DNA of 46,012 nucleotides, taken from the IMG/VR virus record IMGVR_UViG_3300042866_001605, positions 1 through 46,012 of that record; one strand, written 5' to 3'. The notes under the pieces were generated by a model. That model was not told where the DNA came from. It saw only the letters and a program-made list of their open reading frames with translations, and did no database searches. Source of the stretch: a virus. The translations under genes were made by a program, and so were the position numbers. Shown piece after piece: positions 28,605-45,633 of the stretch; position 1 is the stretch's first letter; each line of letters begins with the position of its first letter.

Positions 28605-28614
28605 GGTTTTACCC
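28605..28614 (-). promoter_or_regulatory. GGGTAAAACC element before the collar-fibre operon
   Basis: GGGTAAAACC on the minus strand contains the TAA stop of the 3,164-aa gene and lies 41 nt before the ATG at 28563. It would start the five-gene collar/collagen operon, 28563 to 22750. Confidence 0.5.
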
Positions 28615-31600
28615 GAAGCCAATGGAGTAGAAGGTGGCTCCAGCCGGAGGCGCTTCAGAGAAGTTGATGGTGTCGCCGGTAGTTGTGTAAGCGTCGTTGG
28701 CGCTCTGAACGATACCACCAACCACAATCATCACGTAATGTGACGCTTTGGGAGCGAATGGCGCACCACCTGACAGCATCTGGAATGCAGTCTTAGATCC
28801 ATCGAAAGGTGCGTCCAAGTTGACCAACTTGACGTCCACTCCACCTCCGCCACCGCCGGAGGCGTTCAGGGTTCCATCGGGTTCGATGGTGAGGTTTTGA
28901 CCCACCTTGATGCCGCCCAACTTCGTTGGGGAGGCGATGTCCAAGGAGAGGGCACCGTTGGATCCAAGGATCAGACCCACATTCGGTTGAACGAACACGC
29001 CACCGAGATCGGTCGAGGTTGCGGGACCGAGGGTGATGTTGCAGGTTCTTCCACCTGGTGAAGGACCAGTATTGGTGACACTGATTCCGTCGGCGGCAGT
29101 GGCAGTGATGTTTGTGAACGAGTTCTCCGCCTTGACTTCTAGTTCAGCGATACCGGCCTGAACGTTTGTGGCGGCTAGTCCTGCCACAGGGCTCAGACTG
29201 ACGTTCACAGCGGCGATGGCCGTATTCTCGAAGTCGATGGTGACCCAAGCGGCTTGGGAACCCTGCTCCTTCTCCACAACGAACCAGTCGCCGGACTGCA
29301 CGCCTGTTGGAGGGATAACGGCGCCCGGAGGTCCAATGACACCAGCGTTAACAACCAGCAGGTAGTAGTTGTCCGGCAATCCACTCGCGACAGGGGCTTG
29401 AGCTCCCACCGTAAGGTAGGCGGAGCCAGCTGGAGTGACGGAGGCGACTACACCAGTGCGAGAGTTGTATGTGCCCGCTAGAACGTTGGCTCCAGTCAGG
29501 GCCGCGATCTTGGCATTGAGCTGGGAGGCGGCAAACTGGGTCAGGGCGAGATCTTCGGAGTTGCCAGTGACATCGCTAGTGAGCTGGGTGACACCCACGG
29601 TACCGACATTCGCCCTCAGAGTGGAGAGGGTGAGTCGTGTTCCGTCGTTGGATGTGGTGACCGGTGGCGAGATCTGGGCGACCATACCTCCAGCGCCAGC
29701 GATGGTGCAGAACTCCACACGGTCCTGAACTTGAAGTTCCAGCGCTTCGAGAGCGAGTTGAACGGTGTTCGCCGATGTGATTCCTGGAATCAACGGATCG
29801 ACGACGATGTCACGTGCGAAGATGCTTCCACCACCCTCAGCATTGAGGGTTCCATCGGGATCGATTGTCAGATTACGACCGACCTTGACGCCGCCGAGCT
29901 GCGTCGTGGACGCGATCGCCAATGACAGGGAACCGTCGCCGCCCAACAGGATTCCTGTGGAGGGACCCTGAACGAACACACCGCCAAGATCCACCTGTGT
30001 GGCTGGACCCAAGCGAATGGAGGCCGTTCTGCCGGTAAACGACTGAGGGGAGATCGTGACGGAGAGGGAGTCTGCTCCAGGTGCGTTGAGGTCTGTGATG
30101 GACTTTTCAGCCTTGATCTCCAGCTCCTGGATGCCGGTCTGCACGTTGGTGGCAGCGAGACCCGGAACGGTCGATAGGGAGACTTGGATTGCAGTGACGG
30201 CCTCATTCTCGAAGTCGATCGTGATCCACGCGGCTGGGAAAGTCGGCGTGTTCTCAACCACGAACCAATCACCGGACTGAACTCCAGTGACTGGGATGGT
30301 GGCACCCGGAGGACCTTGATTTCCGCTCTTAACAACCAGCAGATAGTAGTTATCGGGGAGACCCGACGCCGCGGGAGCCTGCTGATTGACTCGGAAGTAC
30401 GGGGTACCTGCGGGCGTGACCGTTACCACACGACCTGTGCTGGAGTCGTAAGTACCCGCGAGGACGTTTCCTCCAGTGATCGCTTCGATCTTGGAGTTGA
30501 GTTGAGCGGCCGCCTTCTGGGAGAGGGCGAGAACTTCGGAGGTTCCAGTGAAGTCGTTCGTTAGGGTCGTGAATCCTTGGACACCGATCGTCGCGATAGT
30601 TGGCGTCAGGGTGATCGTGGTGCCCTGGTTTGAAGTCAGTGAGGGAGCCGAGACGCTAGCTTGCAAACCAAGACCGTCCACTCTACAGAATTCCACTCGG
30701 TCCTGAGCCTGAAGCTCGATGGCTTCGAGAGCCTCCTGGACCGTGCGAGCACCGTCGATGCCAGGGATCCTAGTGATAGTGATACCTGAGGCGGAACCAG
30801 AACCATCAGCGCTGAGGATTCCATCAGCGTCGATCACCAGACCCTTACCGACACGGATACCACCGATGTGCTCGGCGGTGGCTGGTGCCACTGAGAGTCC
30901 GCCTGAGGTACTCAGGTTGAGACCGACATACGGACCGATGAACACACCGCCGATATCACTCGAAGTGGCCGGGTTTAGGGCGACTGTGGCTCTTTCGAGA
31001 ACACCAGGGGTGTAAGCTGTGGAAGTAACGGTGATTCCGTTGTTGCCGGCGGTGAGATTACCAACCGCATTCCAAAGAACTTGAGCTACCTCGGTGAAGC
31101 CAGACTGAACATTGCTAGCGCCAAGTCCAGACACCGGGGCCAAATACACGTTGGCGGCGACAACATCGCGGTTCTCGAAGTCGATTAGGATCCACTCGGG
31201 AACACCGATGTCATCCTGAACGATAAACCAGTCACCGGACTGTGCCCCGGTAGCTGGGACTACCGCTCCCGGAGGTCCCTTATCACCGGAGACGATGATG
31301 ATCACGTAGTAATTGTCGAGATCCGAACGAGCGGCGGGAGGAGTGCGACCCGCACGGAATCCCTTAGCGAAACCAGCGGCGGTGGTGGTAACCATGAAGC
31401 CGGTCGAGGCGTTGTAGGTACCGGCGAGGATGTTGACTCCAGTCAGGGCATCCACTTTGGCGTTGAGCACCGACAGAGCGAACTGAGTCGGGGCGATAGT
31501 CTCCGAGGCGCCCGATGGGTCATTGGTGAGTCGAACGATACCTGGCGCGGTGATCGATGCCGGCGCCAATCCGAGGTTGAGAGTGGTCCCGTCGTAAGAT

Positions 31601-34600
31601 GTGGGTGTTGGAGGAGTGATGTCGATGATCAATCCTTCGGTCGTCGCCTTAACAAACTCGATGCGATCCTGAACCTGAAGCTCAATAAGCTCGAATGCCT
31701 GTTGCGCGTTGCGTGCCTGCTCGATGCCACCGATGACGGGATCGATGATAACATTGCGAGCGAAGGGCTCGGCGCCACCCTCGGCGTTTAGCACGCCCTC
31801 AGGAGTGATGGTGAGATTATCACCCACCTTGATGCCACCAAGCTGAGTGGCTGAGGCGACTTTCAGTGAGATTCCACCGATGGCATCTAACGCGATGCCG
31901 TTCGAGTTGGGAGTCGGGACATAGACGGCACCGAGGTCGAAGGCGGAAGCCTTATTCAGGGTCAGCGCCACATTGAGTCCGGTTCCCACCACTGGAGCAG
32001 TAGTTGTGACGGTGATGCCGTCATTGGTGGAGGTGATGACATCGACACGATTCCACAGCGCGGTCGCTTCCTGCTCCAGAGCGGTCTGAACATTGGAGGC
32101 GGAGATTCCCGGAATCGGTGTTACGGCTACGAGTGCGGCGGTGGTGTTCCGATTCTCGTAGTCGATGCAGAACCACTCGGCGGCTTGACCAGGCTCCTTC
32201 TGAACGATGAACCAGTCGCCAGGCTGCACGAAGACGGTTGGGATAATCGCGCCCGGAGGCCCCTTATCACCACCGATGGTCACGATGACGTAGTAGTTAT
32301 CGGGGACGGCGGAAGCTGCGGGTGCTTGCTGTCCGGCGACGAAGCCAGCAAGACGTCCAACGACGGTGGGCTGAACCACGACTCCTCTCGCGGAGTCGTA
32401 AGTGCCGGCCAAGATGCTCGATCCAGTGAGAGCCTCGACCTTCGCATTCAACCCGGCAATAGCGGCTTGGGTGCAGACCAGAGACTGGGATGTGCCAGTG
32501 ACATCATTAGTCAATTGGACGATGCCCTTCTGAGTCAGGTCAGCGTAGGCTACGGCGATCTTCGCCGTGGTGCCGTCCACACCCGGAACAACGGGGGAGA
32601 CTGTGCAAGTGATACCGTCGGAATCCGCCAGAACGAACTCCACACGATCCTGTACCTGATTCTCGATGCCCTGGAGGGCTTCCTGAACGTTGGCTGCGGT
32701 CTCAATACCCACGATGGGTGTCCGCATCAGGACCTCATCGGAGTAGACTGTGGCTGCGTCAGTAGCGTTTAGTGTGCCGTCCGGGTCGATCTGAAGATTC
32801 TTACCGACCTTGATGCCGCCGAGTGTGGTAGGCGAGGCGATCTTCAGCGAGATTCCGCCCGCTTGGGAGAGGAGGATGCCTCCGTCCGTCGTCTGAGGGA
32901 CAAAAAGACCACCGATGTCGGTCTCACTGGCTGGATTGAGCTGGAGGGTTACGTCACGTCCAGTGCCGGGTTGCGGGTCGCTGATCGTGACGGTGATAGC
33001 GTCATTGAGGCTTGTGACATTGTCGACCGCTTCCCAGAGTTGACCAGCCAGTTCCTCGATGCCGGTCTGCACATTGGATGCGGCAAGACCCGGAACTTGA
33101 GCCAGCGACACGAGAACGGCGGCGGTGGTCCTATTATCGAAGTCGATAGTGACCCACTCGGCGGTGCCCGCATCCTTCTGTACGATGAACCAGTCGCCGG
33201 GCTGAACACCTCGTGGAGGGATTGGAGCGCCCGGAGGACCGTTAGAACCGCCAGTTACGACGATGACGAAATAGTTGTCAGGGACGATGTCGGCTGGGGG
33301 TGCAGGTTGTCCGACCTTGAAGTTGTGAATTGAGCCGGCCACAGTCACAGTGACCATCAGTCCAGTCAGGGCGTCGTAGGTGCCTGCCAGCACATTAACG
33401 CCGATCAGTGCCTGAATCTCAGCCTCCAAAATCGATCCAGCGCGCTGCGTGATGGCCAATTCCTCGGAGGTTCCTGTCAGGTCGTTCGTCAGCTGAACGA
33501 TACCCCTCTGTGAGGTATTGGCGTAGTCCAGTCCGAGAAGCAGCGTGGTTCCATCATTGGAAGCCTCGAGATTTTCAGGTAGAGTGGTAGGTGTGACAAC
33601 CTCCACCTGCAGACCCTCCGTTGTGGGGACAACGAATTCGATACGATCCTGAACCTGAAGCTCGATGAGTTCGAGGGCGGACTGAACATTGGTCGCGTTC
33701 TCAATACCAGGGATGGGTGGTTCCACTCCCACGAGTGACGCGACGGTGTTTCTGTTGTCGTAGTCGATGAGGATCCAAGCGGGTGTAGTTCCAGCATCGG
33801 ATTGTGCGATGAACCAGTCACCAGGTTGAACACCGGTTGGCGGGATGACTGTCCCAGAAGGACCCTTATTGCCGCCGGTGATGACGATGACGTAGTAGTT
33901 GTCGATGTCAGTGCTGGCCGCAGGCACATTTTGGCCGACTACGAATCCCTTGGCGGCACCCGCGGGTGTCACGTAAATCAGGGTTCCTGTGGTGCAATTG
34001 TAGGTACCAGCCAGAACGCTGCTTCCGCCCAACGCTTGGATTTCGGATTGCAACTCGGCGAGGGCCGCCTGCACGTTGTTGGCGACTACACCGACGATCG
34101 GTGTGACAACAACTTCCTTAGCCTCCAGTCCACTGACCGTGAGGGTCCCATCGGCGGAAGCGGACAGGTACTTGCCCACTTTAACGCCACCAAGCTGCAC
34201 GTCGTTAGCTGGGAGCAGGGAGATGGTACCCGACACGTAGATCGGTCCGCCCGTCAGACCGGTTCCTGTGAAGATGCTGGTGACGGTTCCGGTGCCACCG
34301 CCGCCGCCGCCTCCGCCACCACCGCCTCCACCACCAGTCGTGGCGGCGTCATCACCGAGGATGGAGGATGTCGTTCCTGAGGGACGTCCCGTGGAAAGCT
34401 GTTTCACGCTCCCCTTGGACACGATGTTGCCGAGCTCGTCTGTGCCCGTGGCCGTCAGCTCGCCGCCCCACATCAGGGTGGCCAGATAGTCGAAGTACTG
34501 CTTCAGTGGGATTTGGTTCCTCTCGTAGACCGGGAGACCCTTCGAGAATTGGATCGTTCCGCAGCTGTGGAAAGAGTGAGAGGTGGCGGACAGGAAGGAG

Positions 34601-37600
34601 TTGGTTGCCAGTTGAAGTGGCCAGGGGCCCGTGGCCGTAGCGTAACCCTTCTGGGGATTAGGTTCCGCTGAGATCTCCTGAACGGAGATGTTCCGTCGAC
34701 CCACTTCACGGGGTTGGAGCAGGGACTCGATGTCCTTGTCCTCGTAGCCCATGACCTGGAGGAAGCGGGACATGGCCGCCTTGGATGGAGCCCAGAAGAA
34801 GTCGTAGTCTTCCGCATTGACGACCGTATTCTCCTTCTGGAGCTGCATCGAGGAGCCAGAATCCCAGTCCTGTGTAGTCTCGGTGTTGTAAAGACCGCGG
34901 ATCATCCCCAGAGTCTTATTCGCCACATCGATCGCCAAGATCTGGACGTATTCGATGCGACCCGGGTACTTGGTGTTGGTGATGGACATCACCACGAACT
35001 CTTTCGCTGGGTCCGGGATCTTGGAGACGTCGTTGACGGTTACTGTGGTCTGGTCTGGAAGGAGAATCTCAGTGGTGTCCGTGACCACTTCACGAACTGG
35101 AACATCGTAGCGCAGCAGACCCTTGCTGGGTGTGCCATTATCCAGATTGACCGCATTCTCAAGGAAGTAGTTCTCCGCAGCGGCGGAATCACCACGGAAG
35201 TAGGTTCCGGTGGGATACTGTTCGCGGAATGGGTCAGGTGCGTAGAGGCCTTGGAAAGTGTCCGCCACGGGCACCTGAATCTCCGTGGAGAAGGTGATGG
35301 CCCAAGGAGAGTCGGTCTGCTGGGGGTTGAGTTTGATCGCCCCGGTGGGTGTCAGTGCACCATTGAAATATACGCCGTCCCAGTCATTGTTCGCAGCCGC
35401 GTACCAGTTCCTATCGGCGAACGTGACGTAGCTTCCGTGAGCGTTATCCAGCACCGGCTCCCAAGGACGCGCGGCGTCACAGAGTTGGAAGGCGGTGTAG
35501 TAAGTGGAGCCATCTACACGGTTGAGAAGGACTTCATTTAGGGTGGGTGAATCCCCCTCTTCCTTGCTCTCGTTGAAAGCCACTTGGAACACACGACCCC
35601 AGCCCCCAGTGGGTCCCGGATCCAGCTGCACACCTGGTTTGTACAGGACAGCTCCGGTGCTGGCCTGATTCAGGTGGAGGATCTTACCGGCTGTGGGAGC
35701 GAGGTGAGTGGTGGTGGAATTCCCCAGGATCATCGAGTAGATCCGATCTCGCAGTGGTCGTGGATCCGACCAACGGGAGATGTAGGGAGCCCAGGCTTCC
35801 AGACCCGGGATGGTCGTGGAGGTTCCGTATGGGAAACCCGAGTCTTTCGCACGAATTCTCAGTGTGCACTTCCCATCCTGGGAGAAGATGACCGTCGGCA
35901 AACCGTCACGGATCAGGATGCCTCTGTACTCCTTATCGGCCGCGCTTCTTGCGTAAACAGCTGTGTCAGGCGCCAGAGAATAAGGCAGGATGTTGATCGG
36001 TTTGAATCCGGGAGCCAAGTTGATCAGCTGGACTTCGGGATTGGTGCTGTCCCGTTCGATGGAGACGATGGTGGCACCGAGGCTGAGTGTCAGCGAGGAA
36101 AGAGTGTCATTCTCCGTAACGGCCAGGGGTACACGAATGCCCTGGAAGATGAATCCGGTCTCCGAGGGCAGCGCTTCGGTCGTAAGTGTGCTCCTACCGA
36201 TTCGGTAGTAGCCCTCTGAGCGTAGAGCGTTGGAGCCAAAGTTGGAGGCGCAATTGGTGGCCGTGAGGTTACCACCGCCGTAGGACCAGAAACCGACCGC
36301 ACAACCAATGCTCCAGGACGAGTCGACTTGCGCGTAACCACGGTTGATGGCTCGAACAGCGAAGTGCCGGAAATCGTTGAAGAGATCGGGAACGCCGGTC
36401 GACTTATCGTTGAACTGCTCCGTGGAGTAGTAGTAGCGAATGTTGGTGATGTCGGTGGCGTTTAGGTACTCCAGCTGCGCCGCCTGACTGACAACACTCG
36501 GCGACTCGGGCCGCAGCGCTGACGGAATGCTCGCCCAAGTAGCGTACTGCAGGGTGTACCAACGCGTGATACGATTACCGATCTCATCCTGGAGGGTGGT
36601 GTACACCTCGTAGGCGACGGGGTCATTCTGAAGGGAGACGACACTGAAAGCGTCAGCGAGTGAGGAGCGGAAACCACTGGTGATATCGCCATTCACCTCC
36701 ATACCACACATGCCGTAGTTCGAACGGACTGTGCAATTGATTACGTACGGCGAGCCATTGTTGGTGGAGTTGGACTCAGTACTCTGAAGCAGGGAGGCGG
36801 GCGTGTTGGCTACGACCACCGTCTCACCGGGATTGACCACCTCCGCCTGGTTCGTCTTACCGTTGAATGTGTCGGGGAAAGCCTTCTGGATGCGGATGTA
36901 GAAGTCGTTCAGCTCTGTCTCAGAGGCGGGATACACCGCACGGAGGCGGTTGTGAGAGCGACCGGGCCACTGGCACGTGGCGAGGATTCCCACCGTCTGT
37001 GGTGTAGCCGGGAGCTGAACCCGCGTGATGAAGTTGGCCTCAGTCTCACGGATGAAGGTGTAAGACAGGAGGAACGTGGTCGGTGTGATCGGATAGGTGT
37101 AGTAGAAACCGGGAGGCACACCTGCCGTGGTCCCACCCTGAATGGGACGTTGGTCGGCTCCAGCGGTGAACTGGAAGAACACACGATCGTTCAGACCGAA
37201 ACAGTGAGGCCTCGACGATACGAACACACCCTCACCGGCCTCACCGGCGATGATGTCGGAGACGTTGATGAGTGGGTTCTTATCTCGGAACGAGAGGTCC
37301 TGTACGAGGGAGTTGCCGGTCCACTTGATGACGCCCGTGATGGGTTCATTCACTCCGGCCAGAGTGGTGGGGTTCTTATATGTCGGAACGTAGCTTGGGC
37401 GAAGCTCAACCTTCCGCAAGTCCATACCGATGATGGTGGTACCGCGGGGCAGGATGAGGCCGCCGGTCTCGGGGTTGAAGGTCTGCAGCGTCAGGACGTC
37501 GGGACGCGCCGCGTCGGAACCCTCAAAGCGAGTGTTGAATTCCGGAATGATGTCCGGGTTGTTGGGATTGACGAGGGGCAGACCCGGGCCGTTGTAGACG

Positions 37601-38103
37601 GGCACGTAGCCGGGCGCCACCACGATGGTGAAGCGGTTGTTCGCGTCGAGGTCAGACTCGTTCTGCAGAATCGACTGCTTCGCGATCTCGATTACAGCAC
37701 GGTTGAGGGTCTTGAAGGGATTGGCCTGACCGTCATTAAGAATGGAGTCCGTCGCGGACGGAAACTCTCCCGCCACAAACACAACGTAACCGTTGGTGCC
37801 ACCCAGGAATGGGGCCGAGATCTGCTTCCAAGCTTGTTGGAGAGTCTCGGGGTCGACGACACCCGCGGACAGACTTCCGGTGATCTCATTGAAGAAAGTC
37901 TCGCCCAGCGACGGTGTCAGGGTCGGGAACTCGTCACCGACACTGGTGGGACCGACCTTGATCACGCTATTGTTCTCGGCCTCGAAGAACAGTCCCGGTG
38001 ACAGAGCGTTTGTGTTGAGTGCTAGCTCTCCAGGATCCAACAGGTTGGATGTGGGGCGCTTATTGAGAATGCTGGAACGCTTGAGAGTGATCCGAACGGC
38101 CAT
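28609..38103 (-). CDS. Giant repeat-containing virion structural protein / tail fibre, 3,164 aa
   Basis: The largest gene here. The N-terminus (ITLKRSSILNKRPTSNLLDPGELALN) matches the 521-aa collar fibre. Residues up to about 1250 form a globular part with LPRGTTIIGMDLRKVELRP and SLVQDLSFRD, patterns I recall from beta-helix structural proteins of T4-like cyanophages. A 14-glycine run (1257-1270) links to PDGTL repeats and then about five and a half copies of a unit of 322-333 residues. Each unit has QVQDRxEF, LTNDxxGxSE, LAGTYxxxTG, DNYYVIVxxGGxKGPPG, QPGDWFIVQ and LGGIKVGxNLTIDPDG. It ends with the FDG module. No enzyme motif is seen. The leader has a hairpin and a GGGTAAGAG element. Confidence 0.82.
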   Translation of the reverse strand: MAVRITLKRSSILNKRPTSNLLDPGELALNTNALSPGLFFEAENNSVIKVGPTSVGDEFPTLTPSLGETFFNEITGSLSAGVVDPETLQQAWKQISAPFLGGTNGYVVFVAGEFPSATDSILNDGQANPFKTLNRAVIEIAKQSILQNESDLDANNRFTIVVAPGYVPVYNGPGLPLVNPNNPDIIPEFNTRFEGSDAARPDVLTLQTFNPETGGLILPRGTTIIGMDLRKVELRPSYVPTYKNPTTLAGVNEPITGVIKWTGNSLVQDLSFRDKNPLINVSDIIAGEAGEGVFVSSRPHCFGLNDRVFFQFTAGADQRPIQGGTTAGVPPGFYYTYPITPTTFLLSYTFIRETEANFITRVQLPATPQTVGILATCQWPGRSHNRLRAVYPASETELNDFYIRIQKAFPDTFNGKTNQAEVVNPGETVVVANTPASLLQSTESNSTNNGSPYVINCTVRSNYGMCGMEVNGDITSGFRSSLADAFSVVSLQNDPVAYEVYTTLQDEIGNRITRWYTLQYATWASIPSALRPESPSVVSQAAQLEYLNATDITNIRYYYSTEQFNDKSTGVPDLFNDFRHFAVRAINRGYAQVDSSWSIGCAVGFWSYGGGNLTATNCASNFGSNALRSEGYYRIGRSTLTTEALPSETGFIFQGIRVPLAVTENDTLSSLTLSLGATIVSIERDSTNPEVQLINLAPGFKPINILPYSLAPDTAVYARSAADKEYRGILIRDGLPTVIFSQDGKCTLRIRAKDSGFPYGTSTTIPGLEAWAPYISRWSDPRPLRDRIYSMILGNSTTTHLAPTAGKILHLNQASTGAVLYKPGVQLDPGPTGGWGRVFQVAFNESKEEGDSPTLNEVLLNRVDGSTYYTAFQLCDAARPWEPVLDNAHGSYVTFADRNWYAAANNDWDGVYFNGALTPTGAIKLNPQQTDSPWAITFSTEIQVPVADTFQGLYAPDPFREQYPTGTYFRGDSAAAENYFLENAVNLDNGTPSKGLLRYDVPVREVVTDTTEILLPDQTTVTVNDVSKIPDPAKEFVVMSITNTKYPGRIEYVQILAIDVANKTLGMIRGLYNTETTQDWDSGSSMQLQKENTVVNAEDYDFFWAPSKAAMSRFLQVMGYEDKDIESLLQPREVGRRNISVQEISAEPNPQKGYATATGPWPLQLATNSFLSATSHSFHSCGTIQFSKGLPVYERNQIPLKQYFDYLATLMWGGELTATGTDELGNIVSKGSVKQLSTGRPSGTTSSILGDDAATTGGGGGGGGGGGGGGTGTVTSIFTGTGLTGGPIYVSGTISLLPANDVQLGGVKVGKYLSASADGTLTVSGLEAKEVVVTPIVGVVANNVQAALAELQSEIQALGGSSVLAGTYNCTTGTLIYVTPAGAAKGFVVGQNVPAASTDIDNYYVIVITGGNKGPSGTVIPPTGVQPGDWFIAQSDAGTTPAWILIDYDNRNTVASLVGVEPPIPGIENATNVQSALELIELQVQDRIEFVVPTTEGLQVEVVTPTTLPENLEASNDGTTLLLGLDYANTSQRGIVQLTNDLTGTSEELAITQRAGSILEAEIQALIGVNVLAGTYDALTGLMVTVTVAGSIHNFKVGQPAPPADIVPDNYFVIVVTGGSNGPPGAPIPPRGVQPGDWFIVQKDAGTAEWVTIDFDNRTTAAVLVSLAQVPGLAASNVQTGIEELAGQLWEAVDNVTSLNDAITVTISDPQPGTGRDVTLQLNPASETDIGGLFVPQTTDGGILLSQAGGISLKIASPTTLGGIKVGKNLQIDPDGTLNATDAATVYSDEVLMRTPIVGIETAANVQEALQGIENQVQDRVEFVLADSDGITCTVSPVVPGVDGTTAKIAVAYADLTQKGIVQLTNDVTGTSQSLVCTQAAIAGLNAKVEALTGSSILAGTYDSARGVVVQPTVVGRLAGFVAGQQAPAASAVPDNYYVIVTIGGDKGPPGAIIPTVFVQPGDWFIVQKEPGQAAEWFCIDYENRNTTAALVAVTPIPGISASNVQTALEQEATALWNRVDVITSTNDGITVTTTAPVVGTGLNVALTLNKASAFDLGAVYVPTPNSNGIALDAIGGISLKVASATQLGGIKVGDNLTITPEGVLNAEGGAEPFARNVIIDPVIGGIEQARNAQQAFELIELQVQDRIEFVKATTEGLIIDITPPTPTSYDGTTLNLGLAPASITAPGIVRLTNDPSGASETIAPTQFALSVLNAKVDALTGVNILAGTYNASTGFMVTTTAAGFAKGFRAGRTPPAARSDLDNYYVIIIVSGDKGPPGAVVPATGAQSGDWFIVQDDIGVPEWILIDFENRDVVAANVYLAPVSGLGASNVQSGFTEVAQVLWNAVGNLTAGNNGITVTSTAYTPGVLERATVALNPATSSDIGGVFIGPYVGLNLSTSGGLSVAPATAEHIGGIRVGKGLVIDADGILSADGSGSASGITITRIPGIDGARTVQEALEAIELQAQDRVEFCRVDGLGLQASVSAPSLTSNQGTTITLTPTIATIGVQGFTTLTNDFTGTSEVLALSQKAAAQLNSKIEAITGGNVLAGTYDSSTGRVVTVTPAGTPYFRVNQQAPAASGLPDNYYLLVVKSGNQGPPGATIPVTGVQSGDWFVVENTPTFPAAWITIDFENEAVTAIQVSLSTVPGLAATNVQTGIQELEIKAEKSITDLNAPGADSLSVTISPQSFTGRTASIRLGPATQVDLGGVFVQGPSTGILLGGDGSLSLAIASTTQLGGVKVGRNLTIDPDGTLNAEGGGSIFARDIVVDPLIPGITSANTVQLALEALELQVQDRVEFCTIAGAGGMVAQISPPVTTSNDGTRLTLSTLRANVGTVGVTQLTSDVTGNSEDLALTQFAASQLNAKIAALTGANVLAGTYNSRTGVVASVTPAGSAYLTVGAQAPVASGLPDNYYLLVVNAGVIGPPGAVIPPTGVQSGDWFVVEKEQGSQAAWVTIDFENTAIAAVNVSLSPVAGLAATNVQAGIAELEVKAENSFTNITATAADGISVTNTGPSPGGRTCNITLGPATSTDLGGVFVQPNVGLILGSNGALSLDIASPTKLGGIKVGQNLTIEPDGTLNASGGGGGGVDVKLVNLDAPFDGSKTAFQMLSGGAPFAPKASHYVMIVVGGIVQSANDAYTTTGDTINFSEAPPAGATFYSIGFG
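28850..34170 (-). repeat. Long direct repeats (about 1 kb units) in the giant fibre gene
   Basis: Using the codons for the QDR(I/V)EF motif as anchor, copies lie near 33644, 32645, 31664, 30698 and 29720, giving periods of 999, 981, 966 and 978 bp. A sixth LAGTY half-unit lies at about 34010. Divergence between units is high, so the expansion is old. Confidence 0.8.
34294..34335 (-). repeat. 14-codon polyglycine tract
   Basis: Fourteen consecutive Gly codons (mixed GGT, GGC, GGA) at residues 1257-1270 form a flexible hinge between the N-terminal body and the repeat shaft. The mixed codon use argues for selection on glycine rather than simple slippage. Confidence 0.9.
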
Positions 38104-38161: not shown

Positions 38162-38323
38162 TCAGAGATAGGCGCCACCGGCGATGGCGTCCTCACTCAC
38201 GTTGCCCCTATCAGCCAGAGCGAGAGCCGCGTCAAGGTACTTCATGGCACCTTGCGGATCACTTCGCCGGTTGAGTTTGTACTTGTCCATCAGCGCGATG
38301 TACTTCTTGTCGTCAGATGCCAT
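38162..38323 (-). CDS. Small hypothetical protein, 53 aa
   Basis: 53 residues from the ATG at 38323 (MASDDKKYIALMDKYKLN), overlapping the kinase-like gene by 11 nt. A longer version from 38380 would overlap that gene by 68 nt and is rejected. Two helices (DKKYIALMDKYK and AMKYLDAALALADRGN) are likely. No function recognised. Last gene before the fibre locus. Confidence 0.6.
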   Translation of the reverse strand: MASDDKKYIALMDKYKLNRRSDPQGAMKYLDAALALADRGNVSEDAIAGGAYL

Positions 38324-40553
38324 CGTAAAGAACCTCGATAACTTGCCTTGCTTGAGCGTCAGTGAGTTTGCCCATGCCACGTGTGCTGAAGGACTTCTCG
38401 TTGGAGCGAATGCCGTGAGTTATCACGTCGGCCACGTCCTGATCGGTGAGGCCAAAACTCTTCAGCTTCTTTATAGCTTTTTCCTTGTTCTCGAGCACCC
38501 TTGCTGCGGTTGGGAATCTCCGTGCGAACTCAGCCTTCACTGCGGGACTGGTGGACAGCTCGGCGTTCACCATCTCCTTTCCCGCGGTACCGTCCCAGCG
38601 TCGAACTTGCCAGTCTCCGCCCATGGAGCCACCTCGCTTAATGGCCCCTTGAGGAACTCGGGTGAATACTCCCATGGCCTCGGCGAGTGCGGCTTTAGGT
38701 CCGGCTTGGGCCAAGCCCATATCCACAAAGCGGCCGTTTCCATTCCTATCAATGAAGACGTTCTCGATGTGCATGTCGTTATGGGCGATGCCCATACGGT
38801 GGAGTTTGGCCCGAGCTTCCCAATAGACGTCGGAGACAACTTTACCAGTCTTGCCGACTGGATCGTCACCTTTCTTCTTGCCGATTGGTGAGCCGGGAAC
38901 TCGCGTCATGGCGATGCGACCGTCGTGAGTACCTCTCTCGTAACCAGGACCATCATACTGCGCGGCGATCAGTTTTGGACCGAGGTCGACTTTCCCGATT
39001 CGGTCAATGAGTTTCGCCTCATTCTCACCGACAGTTCCGCGCTTGACGACCACGTCGTTTTTGTCCACAATGGCTGTGCCGTAGGCGCCCTCTCCAAGGA
39101 GTTTGGCTCCCTTCTTGAGCGAGTTGCCCCAGACGAAATCCTCCTTGCCCATCTGCATCTGGGTGTCCCTCTCGACACGCTCGTCGAGCCTCATCATGTT
39201 TTCGTGAGTCCACTTACTCACTTTCTGAGGGAGGCCAGCAGGATATAACGGACGTCTAGAGAGTCCACGTCTCGCCAACTCATCCTCGACATCCTTCGCC
39301 TCACCCGCTTTCCCTTGACGAATGAAAACGCTATATTGATCACGAAGTTCCTCGTCGCCCCACTTCTTCCATTTGCTGGGATCCGCGGGATTCGCCTTGG
39401 CTCGTCTCAGCATTTCGGCCTCGATCTCCTTCACCATGTCGTCCTTCCCAAGTTGTTTCGCGGCCTGAAGTCGATTGCGAAGTTGGTCATCAGCAAACTT
39501 GCCCCACGCATTGGGAGCTCCCGCGGCTTGGGCCTTTTGTTGGGCTTGCTTATTGGCCTGCCCCGCACGCCGAGCTCTTTCCCTTCGCAGAGCGTCCAGC
39601 CTCACCATCGCCTCAGGGCTACCATCCTTGATGTAGTGCTTCTCGAGATCGTCGAGATCCTTCGGATTGAGCGCTCGGAAAAGCTTGGAATCGGCGGGAG
39701 GTAGATTTTTAGCCTTGACGCTATTACTCTCCAGTTTGGCGGCGGCTTGATTTTCGGCATCGAATTTAGCTTTAACCGCTGCCGCTTCTCTCTTTAAGGC
39801 TGACGGGGTTTCTTTTTCGCCACGAATTCGCAAATTCATCTGAGCGACCGCTTCTATCCCTGGCGGAATAGGTTTGGACTTCCCAGCGTCCATCTTCGCC
39901 CTCTCGTCGAGAGCCTTCTGAATCTTGTCCCGCTGGTACTTGTAGGGGGCTCGCTGGAGGTACTCCTCGAGCTTCTCCTTCGGTGCCTTGGCGAGGAATC
40001 CGGCGTTGATCTGACGTGAGAGGTTCTTGTTAGGCTCGGGAGCGGGAGCGGGCTCAGCGGACTTCGGCTTGGCGGTCCGGATGTTACCGACAATCGCTTT
40101 AAGATTCCTATCGGCCTCGGACTTCATCCTGGCGTTTCTCTCGTCCTGCTCCCGCTTGGCGGCCGCTTTCTCGTCGGCGAGTTTTTGACCTTCACGCCTC
40201 ACAGCGGATGGGGTTACCTTCTCACCGCGGCCCTCCAGGTTCAGTTTGGCGGGAAGGGTGTAGCCAGTTCCCCGGCCGTCGTCCTTCACGGACGGCTTTT
40301 TGGTCGGAGCCTCCGTCGCCGGCTTTCCGGCACGGCGGGCCAACTCCGCCTCGATGGCTTTTCGCTGATACTTGTAGGGAGCTCGTTGGAGGTACTCTTC
40401 CAGCTTTTGGGTGGTAGCTTTGGCTAGGAAACCCTTTCCCACTCGATTGGAGAGAGCCTCCTCCTGTCCCTTGCGGCACTTGCCGCTAGTTCCGTACGCG
40501 CTACCGTCTGGGCGCACGCACCGTGTAAAGTCGTAGAAGTCCTGTTCGTTCAT
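38313..40553 (-). CDS. Protein-kinase-like protein with N-terminal helical repeats and Cys-pair tag
   Basis: 746 residues. Start ATG at 40553 (TGATG overlap). Residues 1-30 carry FTRCVRPDGSAYGTSGKCRKG. Two copies of GFLAKAxxxKLEEYLQRAPYK (about 40-75 and 185-220), each followed by an RGEKxTPSA segment, and three W/F-D-x-ELR type helical repeats lead into a kinase-like domain. That domain has a glycine loop GEGAYGT (487-493), K504 in VVVKRG, catalytic loop HNDMHIEN (591-598, D593, N598) and D611-M-G for the DFG position. All key residues of an active eukaryotic-like or RIO/Bud32-like kinase are present. It probably phosphorylates a host or virion protein. The gene lies in the structural region, so the protein may travel in the particle. 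Confidence 0.8.
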   Translation of the reverse strand: MNEQDFYDFTRCVRPDGSAYGTSGKCRKGQEEALSNRVGKGFLAKATTQKLEEYLQRAPYKYQRKAIEAELARRAGKPATEAPTKKPSVKDDGRGTGYTLPAKLNLEGRGEKVTPSAVRREGQKLADEKAAAKREQDERNARMKSEADRNLKAIVGNIRTAKPKSAEPAPAPEPNKNLSRQINAGFLAKAPKEKLEEYLQRAPYKYQRDKIQKALDERAKMDAGKSKPIPPGIEAVAQMNLRIRGEKETPSALKREAAAVKAKFDAENQAAAKLESNSVKAKNLPPADSKLFRALNPKDLDDLEKHYIKDGSPEAMVRLDALRRERARRAGQANKQAQQKAQAAGAPNAWGKFADDQLRNRLQAAKQLGKDDMVKEIEAEMLRRAKANPADPSKWKKWGDEELRDQYSVFIRQGKAGEAKDVEDELARRGLSRRPLYPAGLPQKVSKWTHENMMRLDERVERDTQMQMGKEDFVWGNSLKKGAKLLGEGAYGTAIVDKNDVVVKRGTVGENEAKLIDRIGKVDLGPKLIAAQYDGPGYERGTHDGRIAMTRVPGSPIGKKKGDDPVGKTGKVVSDVYWEARAKLHRMGIAHNDMHIENVFIDRNGNGRFVDMGLAQAGPKAALAEAMGVFTRVPQGAIKRGGSMGGDWQVRRWDGTAGKEMVNAELSTSPAVKAEFARRFPTAARVLENKEKAIKKLKSFGLTDQDVADVITHGIRSNEKSFSTRGMGKLTDAQARQVIEVLYDGI

Positions 40554-41239
40554 CACGCTTCACCGAGTTCCTCTTCGTCTTCCTCGTCGTCGGAATCTTC
40601 CTCATCCTCGGGGGAGTTGGACTGACCGGGATCAGCGCCGGCGTCACCACCAGCGGACTTCATCTCGGCGAATCGCAGAATGGCCTCCTCGAGACGGGCG
40701 ATCTTCTCGTCATTCTCGTTGATGGCCTCGGCGTAATCACGGAAGGGGTTGGCCTCGTCCTGGTGATTCTGCGACTCGTACATCATACCATCGTTCATGC
40801 CACGCTGGGTACGGCCGAGATCGTTCACCATCATCTTGGCCTCGACCGCCGAGATCGCCTTCAGGATCTGATTGCGCTCCTTGACGATGCGGTGCTCCTC
40901 CTGAAAGTTGCCCAGCTGCCGGGCACGACGGAGGCGGCCATTCAGACTCTCCTGAACTTTCATGAGGCGGGTGAGTTCACCCTCCATCGAGTTGTACTCG
41001 CCGGTGCCCTGCTCCTCGCCGTAATTGAAGGTCGGGGGACCACTGCCACGTGGCTGATTGCCGTAGAAGGCGGAGTGTGGCTGCCACGGCTCATCCTCCT
41101 TTTTGAGCTTGCTCACCTGAGGGGAGAGAACCGGTACGTCCTCGGCGTCGATTCCAGTGCCGTGGAAGCCGCGTTCTGAGTAGCTGTAGAGTTCATACGC
41201 CTGCTTAAGCGCGGCGTCGGCGATCGAATCTTTGCGCAT
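40553..41239 (-). CDS. Hypothetical coiled-coil protein with acidic tail
   Basis: 228 residues. A helical centre (about 85-205: GELTRLMKVQESLNGRLRRARQLGNFQEE... and later ENDEKIARLEEAILRFAEM) is predicted to form coiled coils. The last 25 residues are almost all Asp/Glu. This shape occurs in scaffolding and chaperone-like phage proteins, but no family match is claimed. It is coupled by TGATG to the kinase-like gene and preceded by GGGTAAAACC. Confidence 0.6.
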   Translation of the reverse strand: MRKDSIADAALKQAYELYSYSERGFHGTGIDAEDVPVLSPQVSKLKKEDEPWQPHSAFYGNQPRGSGPPTFNYGEEQGTGEYNSMEGELTRLMKVQESLNGRLRRARQLGNFQEEHRIVKERNQILKAISAVEAKMMVNDLGRTQRGMNDGMMYESQNHQDEANPFRDYAEAINENDEKIARLEEAILRFAEMKSAGGDAGADPGQSNSPEDEEDSDDEEDEEELGEA

Positions 41240-41251
41240 TGGGAAGTACTT

Positions 41252-42397
41252 TTACGAAGGTTTTACCCGTGGATCCTTACCGAAGATCGCCACGTACCAC
41301 AGAGCTAAGGAATTGGGGCCAACGACTTCAGAGAATGAGAGGAATGTGTCCGTCTTACTCTGCTCCTCCTTTGTTGAGGGGACGAGCACGCCGTCTTTGA
41401 GTCGACCGTAGATGTTTTCACCTGGCGTCGCCTTGGAGAAGCCCATCTTCTCGTACGCCCTCTGTCTGGAGGCGCCCTTACCGTCCTCGGAGTAGGCGTA
41501 CGTCCGCATGACGTAGCCCTCAGGAAGGGAACCCAGAACGGCATTGAAGCAACGTTGTACCTGCCTCGCCACAGCCATCTCCTCCTTTCGGCCCTGAGTC
41601 ACCGTTCCAGCCTCGTAGGTGCCATTCACCTCGAAGTTGAAGCTGTTTCGGCCGAATGTCGTGCTGACGACGTTTCCACCGGGCGTCGTGAATTCGGTCT
41701 TAATCATGCCCATGGGCGTTATACTGACTTTTGTTCCTGCCGGGACATTGGAGACGATGCTATCGAGGACTCTCTGGCTATTTTGGAAGGGCTCCAATTG
41801 CTTCAGATTCTTCTCAAGCTCACCCTTCATGGAGTCGGCCATGTCGGGATACTTCTCCATCACCATTTTGGCGTGGTCGATCTGTCTCTTGATGGCATCA
41901 ACACCGGGGCCTCCAGTGAGTTTGCTCGAGTCACCCTCAAAGGTGCCACCCTTCTCGAAGCTCTCCTCTCTCGGCTTTTTAGGAGATGACTTGGGAGCTT
42001 CCTCAGCCTTGGGCTCCGCTTTTGGCTTGGGCGCCTCCTCAGGCTCGTCCTGACCGAATCTCGAGCGATTGACGGTCAGTTTTGCGAAACTGGACTTCAA
42101 CTCCACTGTATCGCCATCACGAGTAGCTGTCCACTTATCACCGGCATCCGATTTGAAAGTCGTGCTCTCACCGTCAGCGAGTTTGCCAATGGCACTCTGA
42201 TTCTCATCGAGGAGAACGACACTTTCGCCGCCTCCCGACACTTTCATTGTGGAGCCCCAGCTGTACTTTTTGATCTCAATGGCGCTCTCCACACCTTTAC
42301 GGCAGGTTCCCGCGGTGCCGTATGCGGTACCGTCCGGACGCTCGCATCGTACGAAATCCAGAACCTTGAGTGCTTCTTCCGAGAAACTGCCTAGCAT
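41252..42397 (-). CDS. Hypothetical protein with Cys-pair tag and acetyltransferase-like C-terminal motif
   Basis: 381 residues from the ATG at 42397 (TGATG overlap; the GTG at 42400 is rejected). Near residue 20: CERPDGTAYGTAGTCRKG, nearly identical to the tag in the kinase-like protein. A Pro/Lys/Glu linker (about 115-150) follows, then a domain with GYVMRTYAYSEDGKGASRQ and RAYEKMGF ... YGRLKDG. The RxxAYEKMGF pattern recalls the last motif of GNAT acetyltransferases, but I cannot see the acetyl-CoA loop, so this is weak. Probably virion-associated. Confidence 0.6.
   Translation of the reverse strand: MLGSFSEEALKVLDFVRCERPDGTAYGTAGTCRKGVESAIEIKKYSWGSTMKVSGGGESVVLLDENQSAIGKLADGESTTFKSDAGDKWTATRDGDTVELKSSFAKLTVNRSRFGQDEPEEAPKPKAEPKAEEAPKSSPKKPREESFEKGGTFEGDSSKLTGGPGVDAIKRQIDHAKMVMEKYPDMADSMKGELEKNLKQLEPFQNSQRVLDSIVSNVPAGTKVSITPMGMIKTEFTTPGGNVVSTTFGRNSFNFEVNGTYEAGTVTQGRKEEMAVARQVQRCFNAVLGSLPEGYVMRTYAYSEDGKGASRQRAYEKMGFSKATPGENIYGRLKDGVLVPSTKEEQSKTDTFLSFSEVVGPNSLALWYVAIFGKDPRVKPS
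41259..41268 (-). promoter_or_regulatory. GGGTAAAACC element before the coiled-coil/kinase operon
   Basis: GGGTAAAACC lies in the last codons of the 381-aa gene, 19 nt before the ATG at 41239. A second weaker CGTAAAAG follows at the stop codon. Here the element is inside coding sequence, unlike most copies. Confidence 0.45.
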
Positions 42398-43002
42398 CAC
42401 GCCGTCTCCCCGCCTTTACGCCACGCATCAGCGCGTTCCTGACGCTCCTTCTGAAGGAGGTCGCCCGGCTTTGGCGCCTCGTCCTTATTTTCCTTCGGCT
42501 TCGGAGGCTGAGCCGGTGACTGCGGCTTCGGCGCCTGGGCTCCACCGCCACCACCACCGCCTTGGGGTTTCGCTTCGGGCTTCTTCGGACCGACTTTCTT
42601 CTCTCCAGCTACGGATCCCCACTCCACGAGAACGGGTTTACCATCCTTCATCGCCCAACCGAGTTTCTTACCGGATTTCACATCCTTGATCATCTTATTG
42701 TTCTTGAACTCAGAGCCCTCTTTCTTGGCCTGAGTCTCACCCTCCTCCTCCTGCTTCGTCTTCTTGGAAGAGTCGAAGTCCTTATCGTCTTTGGGATTGG
42801 CCTTGGCGCTACGGCACATACCGAAGATCATCTTCTCGTTGGGACCACACTCTTCGGCGAAAGTGGACGGCGCTCCACGTCCGGGCATATTGGTCTGTAG
42901 ACCGCGATCGATCTCGCGGCTCTCGGCGAAGGACCAGTCGACGACGCGATAGTGAACGCCCTCGATGAGGTGGTCCACTGAGGGGATATTGAAAGTGTTC
43001 AT
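42397..43002 (-). CDS. Hypothetical protein with Cys-pair tag and polyglycine linker
   Basis: 201 residues. The N-terminal 55 residues contain VDHLIEGVHYRVVDWSFAES. EECGPNEKMIFGMCRSAK fits the same C-x10-C-R tag as its neighbours. GKKLGWAMKDGKPVLVEWGS is a small beta element. The C-terminal third is Lys/Pro-rich with an 8-Gly run, and looks disordered. The ATG is 4 nt after the previous stop. No enzyme motif. Confidence 0.6.
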   Translation of the reverse strand: MNTFNIPSVDHLIEGVHYRVVDWSFAESREIDRGLQTNMPGRGAPSTFAEECGPNEKMIFGMCRSAKANPKDDKDFDSSKKTKQEEEGETQAKKEGSEFKNNKMIKDVKSGKKLGWAMKDGKPVLVEWGSVAGEKKVGPKKPEAKPQGGGGGGGAQAPKPQSPAQPPKPKENKDEAPKPGDLLQKERQERADAWRKGGETA

Positions 43003-43006
43003 TGTG

Positions 43007-43363
43007 TTACCACTTAGTGCGGTCAGCCCAATATGCGGCTGAAGATGGACCCTTGGCGATATTCTTTGCGTGACGGGCCTTAAAGGAGGCGCGCTTCGCC
43101 TTCATCCTCTCCGACTCACCCTCTTTGGGTTTACCAGCAGTGGAGGCTCCGGCCTGACCGAAGCGAATGAGCTTCTCCTGACCATCGTAGCAGGCTTTAA
43201 CGACGTGGGACTTACCGTTGTGCGTCTCAGCTTTGGGCTTATTACAAGGCATGTCCTCTTTATCGGAGTAGGACTGCTGGGGATACCCGATGGCCATAGC
43301 CTGACGTTCTGCGTAGGCCTCTTTGAACTCGGCGAGGAGATCTTCGGGGAAGGAACCGAACAT
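43007..43363 (-). CDS. Conserved phage protein (SFKARHxKNIAKG family)
   Basis: 118 residues. The C-terminal half matches a signature I recall from many aquatic phage proteins (DUF6321-like): IRFGQAGASTAGKPKEGES, RMKAKRASFKARHAKNIAKG and SAAYWADRTKW. The basic, Trp/Arg-rich stretch could bind nucleic acid. Cysteines in EDMPCNKP and VVKACYDG flank a beta hairpin. In relatives the domain is encoded near head and virion-associated genes; the function is unknown. It is coupled to the previous gene by TGATG. Confidence 0.72.
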   Translation of the reverse strand: MFGSFPEDLLAEFKEAYAERQAMAIGYPQQSYSDKEDMPCNKPKAETHNGKSHVVKACYDGQEKLIRFGQAGASTAGKPKEGESERMKAKRASFKARHAKNIAKGPSSAAYWADRTKW

Positions 43364-43854
43364 CAGCGCATTCTCCCGGAGACGACCTTGTTCTTGATCC
43401 CTCGCTCAATGGCGTCCGCCGAACGAGCCTTCGCACGCTCCTCAGGGGTCATCGCGGCGAGTTCCGCCTCACGCTTGGCGCCCTGACCGCTCGCCATGTT
43501 CACCTCGAGGTGAGCTTGCATGGCCTTTTTCATGGCGTTGAGGATACCCTCCTTCGCGTCGAGGTCGTCGTTGTCCAGATCCTTGATGGCCTTCTTATGA
43601 ATGCGACCCAGATCCTTCGTGTCTTTGGCCTTGGCGTAGCGCTCCTCGAACACCTTCTCGTGCGCGTCATCGAAGGAGCTTCCCACGTCAGCCCTGATGG
43701 CTTCGGTCACATCCTTGTATCCGGCACCGCCACCAATGTGGCAAGTCTTGGATGCTGGAATGTGCGAGGCGCCGCAGGGTTTTCCAGTCCCCTTGCCCTC
43801 ACCAAAGGACGGTGAACCAGCACTCGGACCGGCGATGAGCGGCTTACGCTTCAT
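43363..43854 (-). CDS. Hypothetical protein with Cys-pair tag
   Basis: 163 residues. GKPCGASHIPASKTCHIGGG near residue 26 is the clearest C-x10-CH tag, almost the same as in the 224-aa protein. The rest is helical and charged (DDAHEKVFEERYAKAKDTKD, AMTPEERAKARSADAIERG). The start overlaps the microgene by 4 nt (ATGA). Unknown function. Confidence 0.62.
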   Translation of the reverse strand: MKRKPLIAGPSAGSPSFGEGKGTGKPCGASHIPASKTCHIGGGAGYKDVTEAIRADVGSSFDDAHEKVFEERYAKAKDTKDLGRIHKKAIKDLDNDDLDAKEGILNAMKKAMQAHLEVNMASGQGAKREAELAAMTPEERAKARSADAIERGIKNKVVSGRMR

Positions 43855-43946
43855 CCCTTCCAGCAGGCGTCCTTCAGGTCGCCGGTAGCCTTCTCTGTGT
43901 AGCCCAATCCGAGGAGGCGATCAAAATCGTAGTCTTCAAGGTTCAT
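43851..43946 (-). CDS. 31-residue microprotein
   Basis: ATG at 43946, stop TGA at 43851. Translation begins MNLEDYDFDRLLGLGYTEK and ends DACWKG. Both ends overlap neighbours by 4 nt in ATGA form (43943-43946 and 43851-43854), exactly the spacing used by accepted genes here. Without it there would be an 88-bp gap in an otherwise gapless operon. One Cys and one Trp near the end. Function unknown. Confidence 0.75.
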   Translation of the reverse strand: MNLEDYDFDRLLGLGYTEKATGDLKDACWKG

Positions 43947-44233
43947 TGTCTGTGGTGGGTCCAGTCCCGGACTGACGAGATCTCCTCGCGGATGTCGCGA
44001 AGTTGTTGGGTGATGTGGCTGTGCCACTGCTCTTCGGCGTGCATGTGGGAGAGTAGTTCCTCCTTAGTCACGTAGGACTTAGGAATCTCCACACGCAACT
44101 CGGTGAGTGTGTGTTGCACCTTACTCAAGGTGTTGGTCATCTCGTCAAGGTTTCTCTTACCGAGATACAGGATGACGGAGAGAATGAAGCCGGTCAGAGG
44201 TCCGGCGATCGCGAAGATAACGTGTAGCGGCAT
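43943..44233 (-). CDS. Small membrane-anchored coiled-coil protein, holin-like candidate
   Basis: 96 residues from the ATG at 44233 (TGATG overlap). One hydrophobic helix at residues 4-24 (HVIFAIAGPLTGFILSVILY) is followed by a positively charged stop and about 70 residues of coiled coil with HMHAEEQWHSHI and REEISSVRDW. Such single-pass proteins occur as holins or spanin-like partners, but equally as virion membrane proteins. No lysis enzyme lies next to it. Confidence 0.45.
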   Translation of the reverse strand: MPLHVIFAIAGPLTGFILSVILYLGKRNLDEMTNTLSKVQHTLTELRVEIPKSYVTKEELLSHMHAEEQWHSHITQQLRDIREEISSVRDWTHHRQ

Positions 44234-44934
44234 CACCCAGGCAGACCAGAACCACCTTCGGCGAGACGTTGTTTGACCGAGTCAGGGAGTGCCGACTCCA
44301 GACCCATCTCCTTAGCGATGCGGATGATGTTGCGCATGATCTGACGCTGATTTCCGCCAGCACGACCAACTGCGTGCCACGCGGCTTTCACGTCGGTGGC
44401 GTTCGAGATCGGGAAGCTGGTGCCTGGACCAGCGAATTTGCCCTCAATCTCACCCGACTTCAATTCCTTGCGCTTCTCAGTGCTCCACTCGCGGTACTCG
44501 GCGTCTTGGCGCTTCTTATTCCGACAGGAGGCACATGTCCCACAGGAACAACCCTCATCAAATGAGGGCATGAACGAACCCATCGCGAGGTACTCGTCCT
44601 CCTGTTCGGAGAACACGTACTCCTTCGACTTCAATTCGCGATGTTCGGCGGCGCGGAGGGAGCGGCGACCCATAATCTCGCCCATCGCCTGACCACCGTC
44701 GGCGTACTCGTTCATGTCGCGATTGATCAGGTTCACCCTGCTCTCACGACGCTCTTTATGGTTGGCGAGACGAAGCTCGTTATGATCGGTCTTACCGATG
44801 GTCATGAAACCCTCCTTGTTGACACCAGCACCCCACTTGCGTTTCTGCTTGTTCTCCTTTTCCAGTGAGGGGTCAGATTGAGCGTTGGAGGCGTTGATCA
44901 TGCCACCAACGCCAGGCAGAACTACGCCGTCCAT
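44233..44934 (-). CDS. Hypothetical protein with CxCxxCxxC cluster
   Basis: 233 residues. At about 129-137 CSCGTCASC forms a tight cluster that probably binds zinc or is redox active. The C-terminal 65 residues (FPISNATDVKAAWHAVGRAGG ... ALPDSVKQRL) resemble a helical domain found at the end of several phage structural and environmental phage proteins. The N-terminal half is charged and helical with GRRSLRAAEHRELKSKEYVFSE. It follows a GGGTAAAAAC element. Confidence 0.55.
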   Translation of the reverse strand: MDGVVLPGVGGMINASNAQSDPSLEKENKQKRKWGAGVNKEGFMTIGKTDHNELRLANHKERRESRVNLINRDMNEYADGGQAMGEIMGRRSLRAAEHRELKSKEYVFSEQEDEYLAMGSFMPSFDEGCSCGTCASCRNKKRQDAEYREWSTEKRKELKSGEIEGKFAGPGTSFPISNATDVKAAWHAVGRAGGNQRQIMRNIIRIAKEMGLESALPDSVKQRLAEGGSGLPG

Positions 44935-44954
44935 GCGATGTCAGAAACTGAGTT

Positions 44955-44964
44955 GTTTTTACCC
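44955..44964 (-). promoter_or_regulatory. GGGTAAAAAC element before the 44.9-41.3 kb operon
   Basis: GGGTAAAAAC contains the TAA stop of the 224-aa gene and lies 20 nt before the ATG at 44934. No Shine-Dalgarno is present. It would serve the chain of overlapping genes from 44934 down to 41252. Confidence 0.5.
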
Positions 44965-45633
44965 CTTCATCGCCTCAGGGTAGGCTGTCATCAGAGCGAG
45001 GATAGCGAGTTCGGCCATCAATTTGGAGGCTCCAGTCTGTTCAGCGTAGGCGGGCGAACGATTCATGAAGAAGTCCATCAGGAGCCTCGTGTCGTGTGCC
45101 GAACGTTCGGCCACCATTCTCGCGAGAGCTCCAGGTCCGGGCAGCTTTCCACCTGCGATAGCTGTGCCGATGCCGGCGAATTTGCCGGCGAGGAGCGGTG
45201 CCGCTTGCTGGATGATCTGTCGAGCTTCTGCGGCCTCGACGATGCGCTCCACGCCGCCGTGTGCGGTCTTTCCAAGGAACGCTGCCGCTCCCTCGGTGAT
45301 GATCTTCTTAGCCCAGTCGTCCGCGGTCTTCAAGTGCTTCGCTTCGAGAGCCGTCATCGTCGCCGCCTGAATCACCGTCTCAGCGAGGAGTTGGGCTTGC
45401 TCTCTTGGGAGGCCGAAGTGAGATTCAAGATAGCCAGCTGTCGCCGAACCGAGGACCTTGCCCACCTTCCAGGCGGCCATTCCCTTTCCAACATGCTCGG
45501 CGACGTGACCCACACGCTCTACGACTTTCTTGTGACACTTTTTCTCGTCGGGGATCGCTGAAGCACCACACTGCTTGAACTCCCAGAGAATATATAGCGC
45601 GGCTTCGCTGAAATCCCCAACTTCAAAGCCCAT
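44959..45633 (-). CDS. Hypothetical helical protein with Cys-pair tag
   Basis: 224 residues. FKQCGASAIPDEKKCHKKV at about residues 19-37 is the tag shared with four neighbours. The rest is Ala-rich and helical, including GKVLGSATAGYLESHFGLP and AAPLLAGKFAGIGTAIAGG, which may interact with membranes. The start overlaps the preceding stop (TGATG). No enzyme motif. Confidence 0.6.
   Translation of the reverse strand: MGFEVGDFSEAALYILWEFKQCGASAIPDEKKCHKKVVERVGHVAEHVGKGMAAWKVGKVLGSATAGYLESHFGLPREQAQLLAETVIQAATMTALEAKHLKTADDWAKKIITEGAAAFLGKTAHGGVERIVEAAEARQIIQQAAPLLAGKFAGIGTAIAGGKLPGPGALARMVAERSAHDTRLLMDFFMNRSPAYAEQTGASKLMAELAILALMTAYPEAMKG

Follow-up and report, generated by a model that had tools for sequence, protein, structure and literature searches.

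A tagged kinase gene and its small conserved partner as a candidate virion-delivered effector pair in a phage related to Synechococcus phage S-CBWM1

The IMG/VR virus record IMGVR_UViG_3300042866_001605 (positions 1 to 46,012; the whole stretch of 46,012 nucleotides is called the window below) encodes on its minus strand a protein of 746 amino acids (aa) that resembles protein kinases in its C-terminal part. The open reading frame (ORF) begins with an ATG at 40553 and its stop codon ends at 38313 (Table 1); a fast-evolving linker separates the helical repeats of the product from the kinase domain. A preliminary description of this locus had claimed a kinase-like C-terminal half and a Cys-pair tag: all of the catalytic residues that it named were found at the positions given there and are conserved across relatives, and the tag was located at residues 8-29 and is also present in the neighbouring gene 41252-42400. 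The "long series of helical repeats" of the same description was overstated, as two clear 41-aa copies are followed by the variable linker, and a gene of 53 aa that overlaps the kinase stop codon, referred to here as the partner gene, was missing from it.

The kinase domain carries a protein-kinase-like signature, consisting of a Gly-rich loop (G487-E-G489-A-Y-G492-T493), a VxK lysine (K504), an HxD...N catalytic loop (D593 and N598) and a DxG motif (D611). These residues are unchanged in the alignment of the window kinase with its four closest relatives. The glycines of the loop, the lysine, both aspartates and the asparagine are invariant in 21 aligned kinases, where the conservation of HNDM was partly built into the search pattern and that of the Gly loop, the lysine and the final aspartate is free of such bias. 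The non-synonymous and synonymous substitution rates (dN and dS) against the relative L001 were 0.039 and 0.483 for the catalytic region, and 0.212 and 1.181 for the linker; judged by these rates, purifying selection acts on the catalytic region, and more strongly there than on the linker. The Pfam Pkinase match was under the cut-off and was accompanied by APH and ABC1 matches, all of them weak. A profile of 21 relatives matched 1344 distinct solved chains at E<=1 (best 9e-8), and the best 60 of the 1344 were nearly all kinases, mostly of the Ser/Thr type. Structure prediction of residues 450-746 and its comparison with kinase folds, as proposed in the preliminary description, yielded a kinase fold: the AlphaFold2 (AF2) model was confident (predicted local distance difference test, pLDDT, 92.8; predicted template modelling score, pTM, 0.91), and Foldseek returned 1711 PDB matches at E<=1e-3, the best 50 of which were all kinases. 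The closest viral models were F5B400, which we take to be the S-CRM01 kinase because of its length of 821 aa, as well as S-H34 and three tagged kinases of S-CBWM1. By sequence and model, the domain is a kinase fold with intact catalytic residues.

The tag at the N-terminus of the window kinase is one of two types. A scan of IMG/VR with the type-1 tag alone revealed 62 loci, several contigs (among them contigs of 201 and 277 kb) carrying more than one, and in 105 of 109 non-redundant tagged ORFs the tag lies within the first 100 residues. In relatives, type 1 is replaced by type 2 (KRCxxGKSCGxxCIxxxKxC or GKPCGxSxIxxxKxC). According to Pfam and PHROGs, 96 tagged proteins include kinases, ADP-ribosyltransferases (some Alt-like), cytidylyltransferase/NMNAT proteins and a minor head family (seven match the minor head protein PHROG); the share of kinases among the 96 is inflated, many loci having been reached through kinase searches, and kinases make up two of 43 tag-1 proteins sampled by the tag alone. 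The N-terminal Cys-pair tag appears, from these comparisons, to be a new, exchangeable module found on kinases, ADP-ribosyltransferases, NMNAT-like and HNH enzymes. The two tags of the window share just 45 of 66 DNA positions and are therefore not a recent DNA repeat, and a host origin of the tag is unlikely because its type 1 gave only two weak matches in cellular genomes, both in metagenome-assembled genomes. An F-x-E motif, for which the window kinase has no room, precedes 45 of 71 type-1 tags; it might be a maturation-cleavage site, on which we place no reliance.

In the isolate collection tags were seen only in S-CBWM1, where they are carried by NMNAT, gp165, three kinases, an HNH protein and a virion structural protein. 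PMC10665884 cites RIO-type, APH-type and ChoK-type kinases, and also NMNAT, as found in S-CBWM1 virions. All four of these enzymes (APH, ChoK and Rio2 kinases, NMNAT) bear tag 1 or 2, and the PknB-like kinase of this phage, which has no tag, is absent from the virion list as cited there; this association is post hoc and based on a secondary citation. In the RIO-like and ChoK-like kinases the tag lies before the annotated start or spans it, the GenBank starts of both (L035 23374-24324 and L036 23830-24702) being too far downstream and removing the Cys tag. Several other tagged proteins were observed. S-CBWM1 gp23 (L036 38327-39961), annotated as a virion structural protein, has a type-2 tag and precedes the major head protein gene; it is one of the type-2 tagged proteins of about 545-620 aa, another example being L017 267-2114. 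Very large tagged proteins occur as well, such as L025 7939-12321 with three kinase domains and L033 1069-6237 (1722 aa) with two kinase-like domains and several Cys tags. S-CBWM1 gp106 (L035 19779-21341) is a tagged HNH-like protein and S-CREM2 ORF12 (L010 13307-15916) a virion protein annotated as Cas9, which suggests that HNH nucleases are virion cargo too.

In the kinase tree L004, which has tag 2, is nested in a tag-1 clade (supports 98/95 and 97/92), and the approximately unbiased (AU) test gave p 0.043 against a single clade of tag-1 rows. The kinases of S-CREM2 and S-CRM01 begin with MKRFDAFLTEE and MISFDQFLSEK, and the T4 internal proteins IPII and IPIII with MKTYQEFIAEA. In S-CREM2 this T4-like capsid-targeting motif starts five annotated genes, all five being in the virion list (52 proteins, 219 genes), an enrichment with a probability of about 6e-4, calculated by hand for a motif picked after the sequences were seen. 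L026-L032 encode fusions in which a MuF head protein precedes the kinase, and the MuF part shares about 45% identity with its counterparts in cyanophages S-H1 and KBS-S-2A; Pfam recognised the Phage_Mu_F domain in L026, L028, L030 and L032 and none in the window kinase, in which the T4-type N-terminal peptide MKxYxxFIxE is not present either. It appears that related kinase domains are carried by varied delivery modules (tag 1, tag 2, T4-like capsid-targeting peptide and MuF fusion), an arrangement that appears to be new.

The partner gene differs from its counterpart in L001 by a pN of 0.008 and a pS of 0.23 (proportions of non-synonymous and synonymous differences), and by this measure is under purifying selection. 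In 24 loci, which cover every delivery type, a homologue immediately follows the kinase; these loci include S-CREM2 (ORF13), S-CRM01, S-B68, MA01, the MuF fusions L027 and L028, and S-CBWM1 (HOU61_gp083). A tblastn search of all phage records with the partner alone retrieved 12 records, exclusively of Synechococcus phages, the kinase being adjacent in all those inspected. Partner-only sampling of IMG/VR, made with a six-row alignment and with some contigs overlapping the kinase-sampled set, gave a kinase immediately upstream in 23 of 24 loci. Comparison with PHROGs gave no family for the partner, and nearly all isolates examined list it as a hypothetical protein; in S-CREM2, ORF13 is in the virion list with one peptide. 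This conserved kinase partner gene appears, by sequence comparison, to be new. A close relative of the window with the same neighbours, L111 (478-3653), has lost the kinase and keeps an orphan partner before the fibre gene, directly preceded by a homologue of the window gene 40553..41239.

The order of tagged genes, kinase and giant fibre gene, seen earlier as a late-looking operon, is real. The window is colinear with the S-CBWM1 genome (polymerase, 53% identity; tape measure; giant fibre), in which the kinase directly before the fibre region is the RIO-like HOU61_gp084 (gp84), 36% identical to the window kinase in the catalytic core; the giant fibre is 33% identical over about 1240 aa to the S-CBWM1 gene following this kinase. 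A near-identity search with the window among 50,697 phage records gave zero matches, and a promoter and terminator scan gave results at chance level. An N-terminus like GxFSPEAL is common to several proteins of the operon in 40553-45998 (for example 41252-42400, 43007-43363 and 45633-45998) and may serve as an additional signal for sorting or assembly. PADLOC gave only generic PD-T4-6 kinase matches, which are no evidence of a defence system.

Table 1. Coordinates of the kinase gene, its parts and the neighbouring genes in the window
Feature	Position	Strand	Basis or remark
Kinase gene, 746 aa	38313..40553	-	ORF call; Cys-pair tag, two helical repeats, variable linker, C-terminal kinase domain
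Protein-kinase-like domain, residues 450-746	38316..39206	-	Pfam, profile search, AF2, Foldseek
Cys-pair tag type 1, residues 8-29, DFTRCVRPDGSAYGTSGKCRKG	40467..40532	-	Also present on many unrelated proteins
41-aa helical repeat copy 1, residues 37-77	40323..40445	-	Sequence repeat
41-aa helical repeat copy 2, residues 181-221	39891..40013	-	Sequence repeat
Partner gene, 53 aa	38162..38323	-	ATG inside kinase gene end, 11-nt overlap
Giant tail-fibre/baseplate-type gene downstream of kinase	28609..38103	-	Similarity to S-CBWM1
Upstream gene, N-terminus MRKDSIADAALKQAYELY	40553..41239	-	Stop overlaps kinase start by one base (TGATG)
Second protein with a type-1 tag (42293-42358), without Pfam family	41252..42400	-	
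Looser Cys pair protein, CGPNEKMIFGMC at 42805-42849	42397..43002	-	
Type-2-like tag protein, GKPCGASHIPASKTCHIG at 43732-43776	43363..43854	-	
Type-2-like Cys pair protein, CGASAIPDEKKCHK at 45526-45570	44959..45633	-	

Taken together, the window probably encodes a virion-carried, injected effector kinase with a dedicated partner. The kinase would be made late in infection, directed to the particle, with the head as the most likely site, by the Cys-pair tag at its N-terminus, and ejected into the cyanobacterium along with the DNA, where it may phosphorylate one or more putative host targets before phage gene expression. The 53-aa protein would be its dedicated partner, the favoured role being to keep the kinase silent or stable until delivery. 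The role of the tag as a packaging signal, injection, a host substrate and a silencing partner are all steps that we infer. The packaging idea has direct support in relatives, because the class of the S-CBWM1 counterpart is cited in virions, and a relative from S-CREM2 was detected in virions by 21 unique peptides. The packaged-effector idea of the preliminary description is supported by kinases of relatives, the slot counterpart in S-CBWM1 and that of S-CREM2; for the uncultured phage of the window, packaging is what we infer. Several points weigh against our interpretation: direct virion presence is reported for relatives alone, the S-CBWM1 virion data being second-hand, and the authors of the S-CREM2 study warn that non-packaged proteins may accompany CsCl-purified particles. 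The AF2 model of the tag is poor (pLDDT 68), and the tail might be the packaging site rather than the head. Global TM-scores against solved kinases reach just 0.3-0.4, so the C-lobe is divergent or unusual.

Alternative explanations differ in what they change. That the particle carries a small-molecule kinase of APH/choline-kinase-like type, and not a protein kinase, is unlikely: the catalytic loop HNDMHxxN with DMG does resemble APH/RIO-type enzymes, and Pfam gave weak APH and ABC1 matches next to Pkinase, but the top matches of the full profile are eukaryotic-type Ser/Thr kinases and Bud32. It is quite improbable that the kinase phosphorylates virion or fibre proteins while particles are assembled in the producing cell and remains within or attached to the particle without being injected. 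Its late-operon position directly before the giant fibre gene would fit such a role; however, the pair of kinase and partner in the T4-like relatives is surrounded by replication and recombination genes, distant from fibres, and the S-CREM2 kinase, with its T4-like capsid-targeting N-terminus, is nonetheless in virions. The tag of the window kinase is found, moreover, on ADP-ribosyltransferases of the Alt-like class.

Rather than an address label, the tag might be a mini-domain that binds metal or DNA, or else a recombination seam accompanying late genes, as could be supposed from the four cysteines of some tags and the poor structure model. This we regard as doubtful, since the low DNA identity of the two window tags speaks against a recent repeat, tag types are swapped between closely related kinases, and in S-CBWM1 the cited virion enzymes are all tagged (four of four), the untagged PknB-like kinase being absent from the cited list. 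An activator, docking factor or kinase substrate as the partner's role comes somewhat short of an even chance: in T4-like relatives the partner bears its own capsid-targeting-like N-terminus, and the presence of the S-CREM2 partner in the virion list implies that it travels with the kinase. Retention of the partner without the kinase in L111 would be unexpected for an obligate activator and is typical of orphan immunity-like genes; because of it we lean, with modest confidence and from sequence comparison, to a silencer or immunity-like role.

Virion-associated cyanophage kinases have been described since 2011, and the "new system" proposed earlier has to be narrowed to its exchangeable tag and conserved partner, both apparently undescribed within the openly accessible literature checked. 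The wider proposition, that phages of cyanobacteria have in common a portable cassette of a kinase and a partner of about 50 aa, which occurs in at least four virion-delivery modules, two of them undescribed Cys-pair packaging tags (types 1 and 2) addressing kinases, ADP-ribosyltransferases, NMNAT-like and HNH enzymes, is evenly poised. If it is true, the Cys-pair tags would be a second general capsid-address code alongside that of T4; and should the tag prove to be an address label, sequence alone could be enough to deduce which proteins many uncultured cyanophages inject. The isolate S-CBWM1 makes the address-label idea testable now, and the kinase-partner pair would be a defined effector system for seeking host targets in early infection.

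Among known systems, the T7 gp0.7 kinase is likewise a phage kinase expected to act on host proteins, but it is made early and is not packaged; no close sequence relation to the window kinase was found, and early placement of that type is not seen in the window, where the kinase stands between late tagged genes and fibre genes. S-CBWM1 (Aokuangvirus) gp84 occupies the same slot before a homologous giant fibre, has a partner-like small gene directly downstream and belongs to a class cited among virion proteins, although it is 316 aa long from the furthest upstream start, has a type-2 and not a type-1 tag and is without the 41-aa repeats. The kinases of cluster C T4-like cyanophages (S-CREM2 ORF14 and S-CRM01 "PKN8") have a related domain, rank with the best structural hits among viral models (TM about 0.65) and share the downstream partner gene; they differ in their T4-like capsid-targeting N-terminus, the lack of a Cys-pair tag and a location near replication and recombination genes. 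By analogy, the T4 internal proteins and Alt, which are carried in the head and injected, the former with a short N-terminal address, may be compared with the window kinase, whereas the enzyme is unrelated, the tag sequence is another and maturation cleavage is not a known feature of the window kinase. MuF polymorphic toxins and polyvalent phage proteins share with it an N-terminal delivery module, an enzyme at the extreme C-terminus and a small gene after it, the conserved gene directly downstream of the window kinase holding the position of a MuF-toxin immunity gene with a putative inhibitory role; L026-L032 are literal MuF-kinase fusions, whereas the window protein is without a MuF domain. 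The polyvalent kinases of PMC5512222 are without the C-terminal subdomain, unlike the window kinase, the model of which retains a helical C-lobe.
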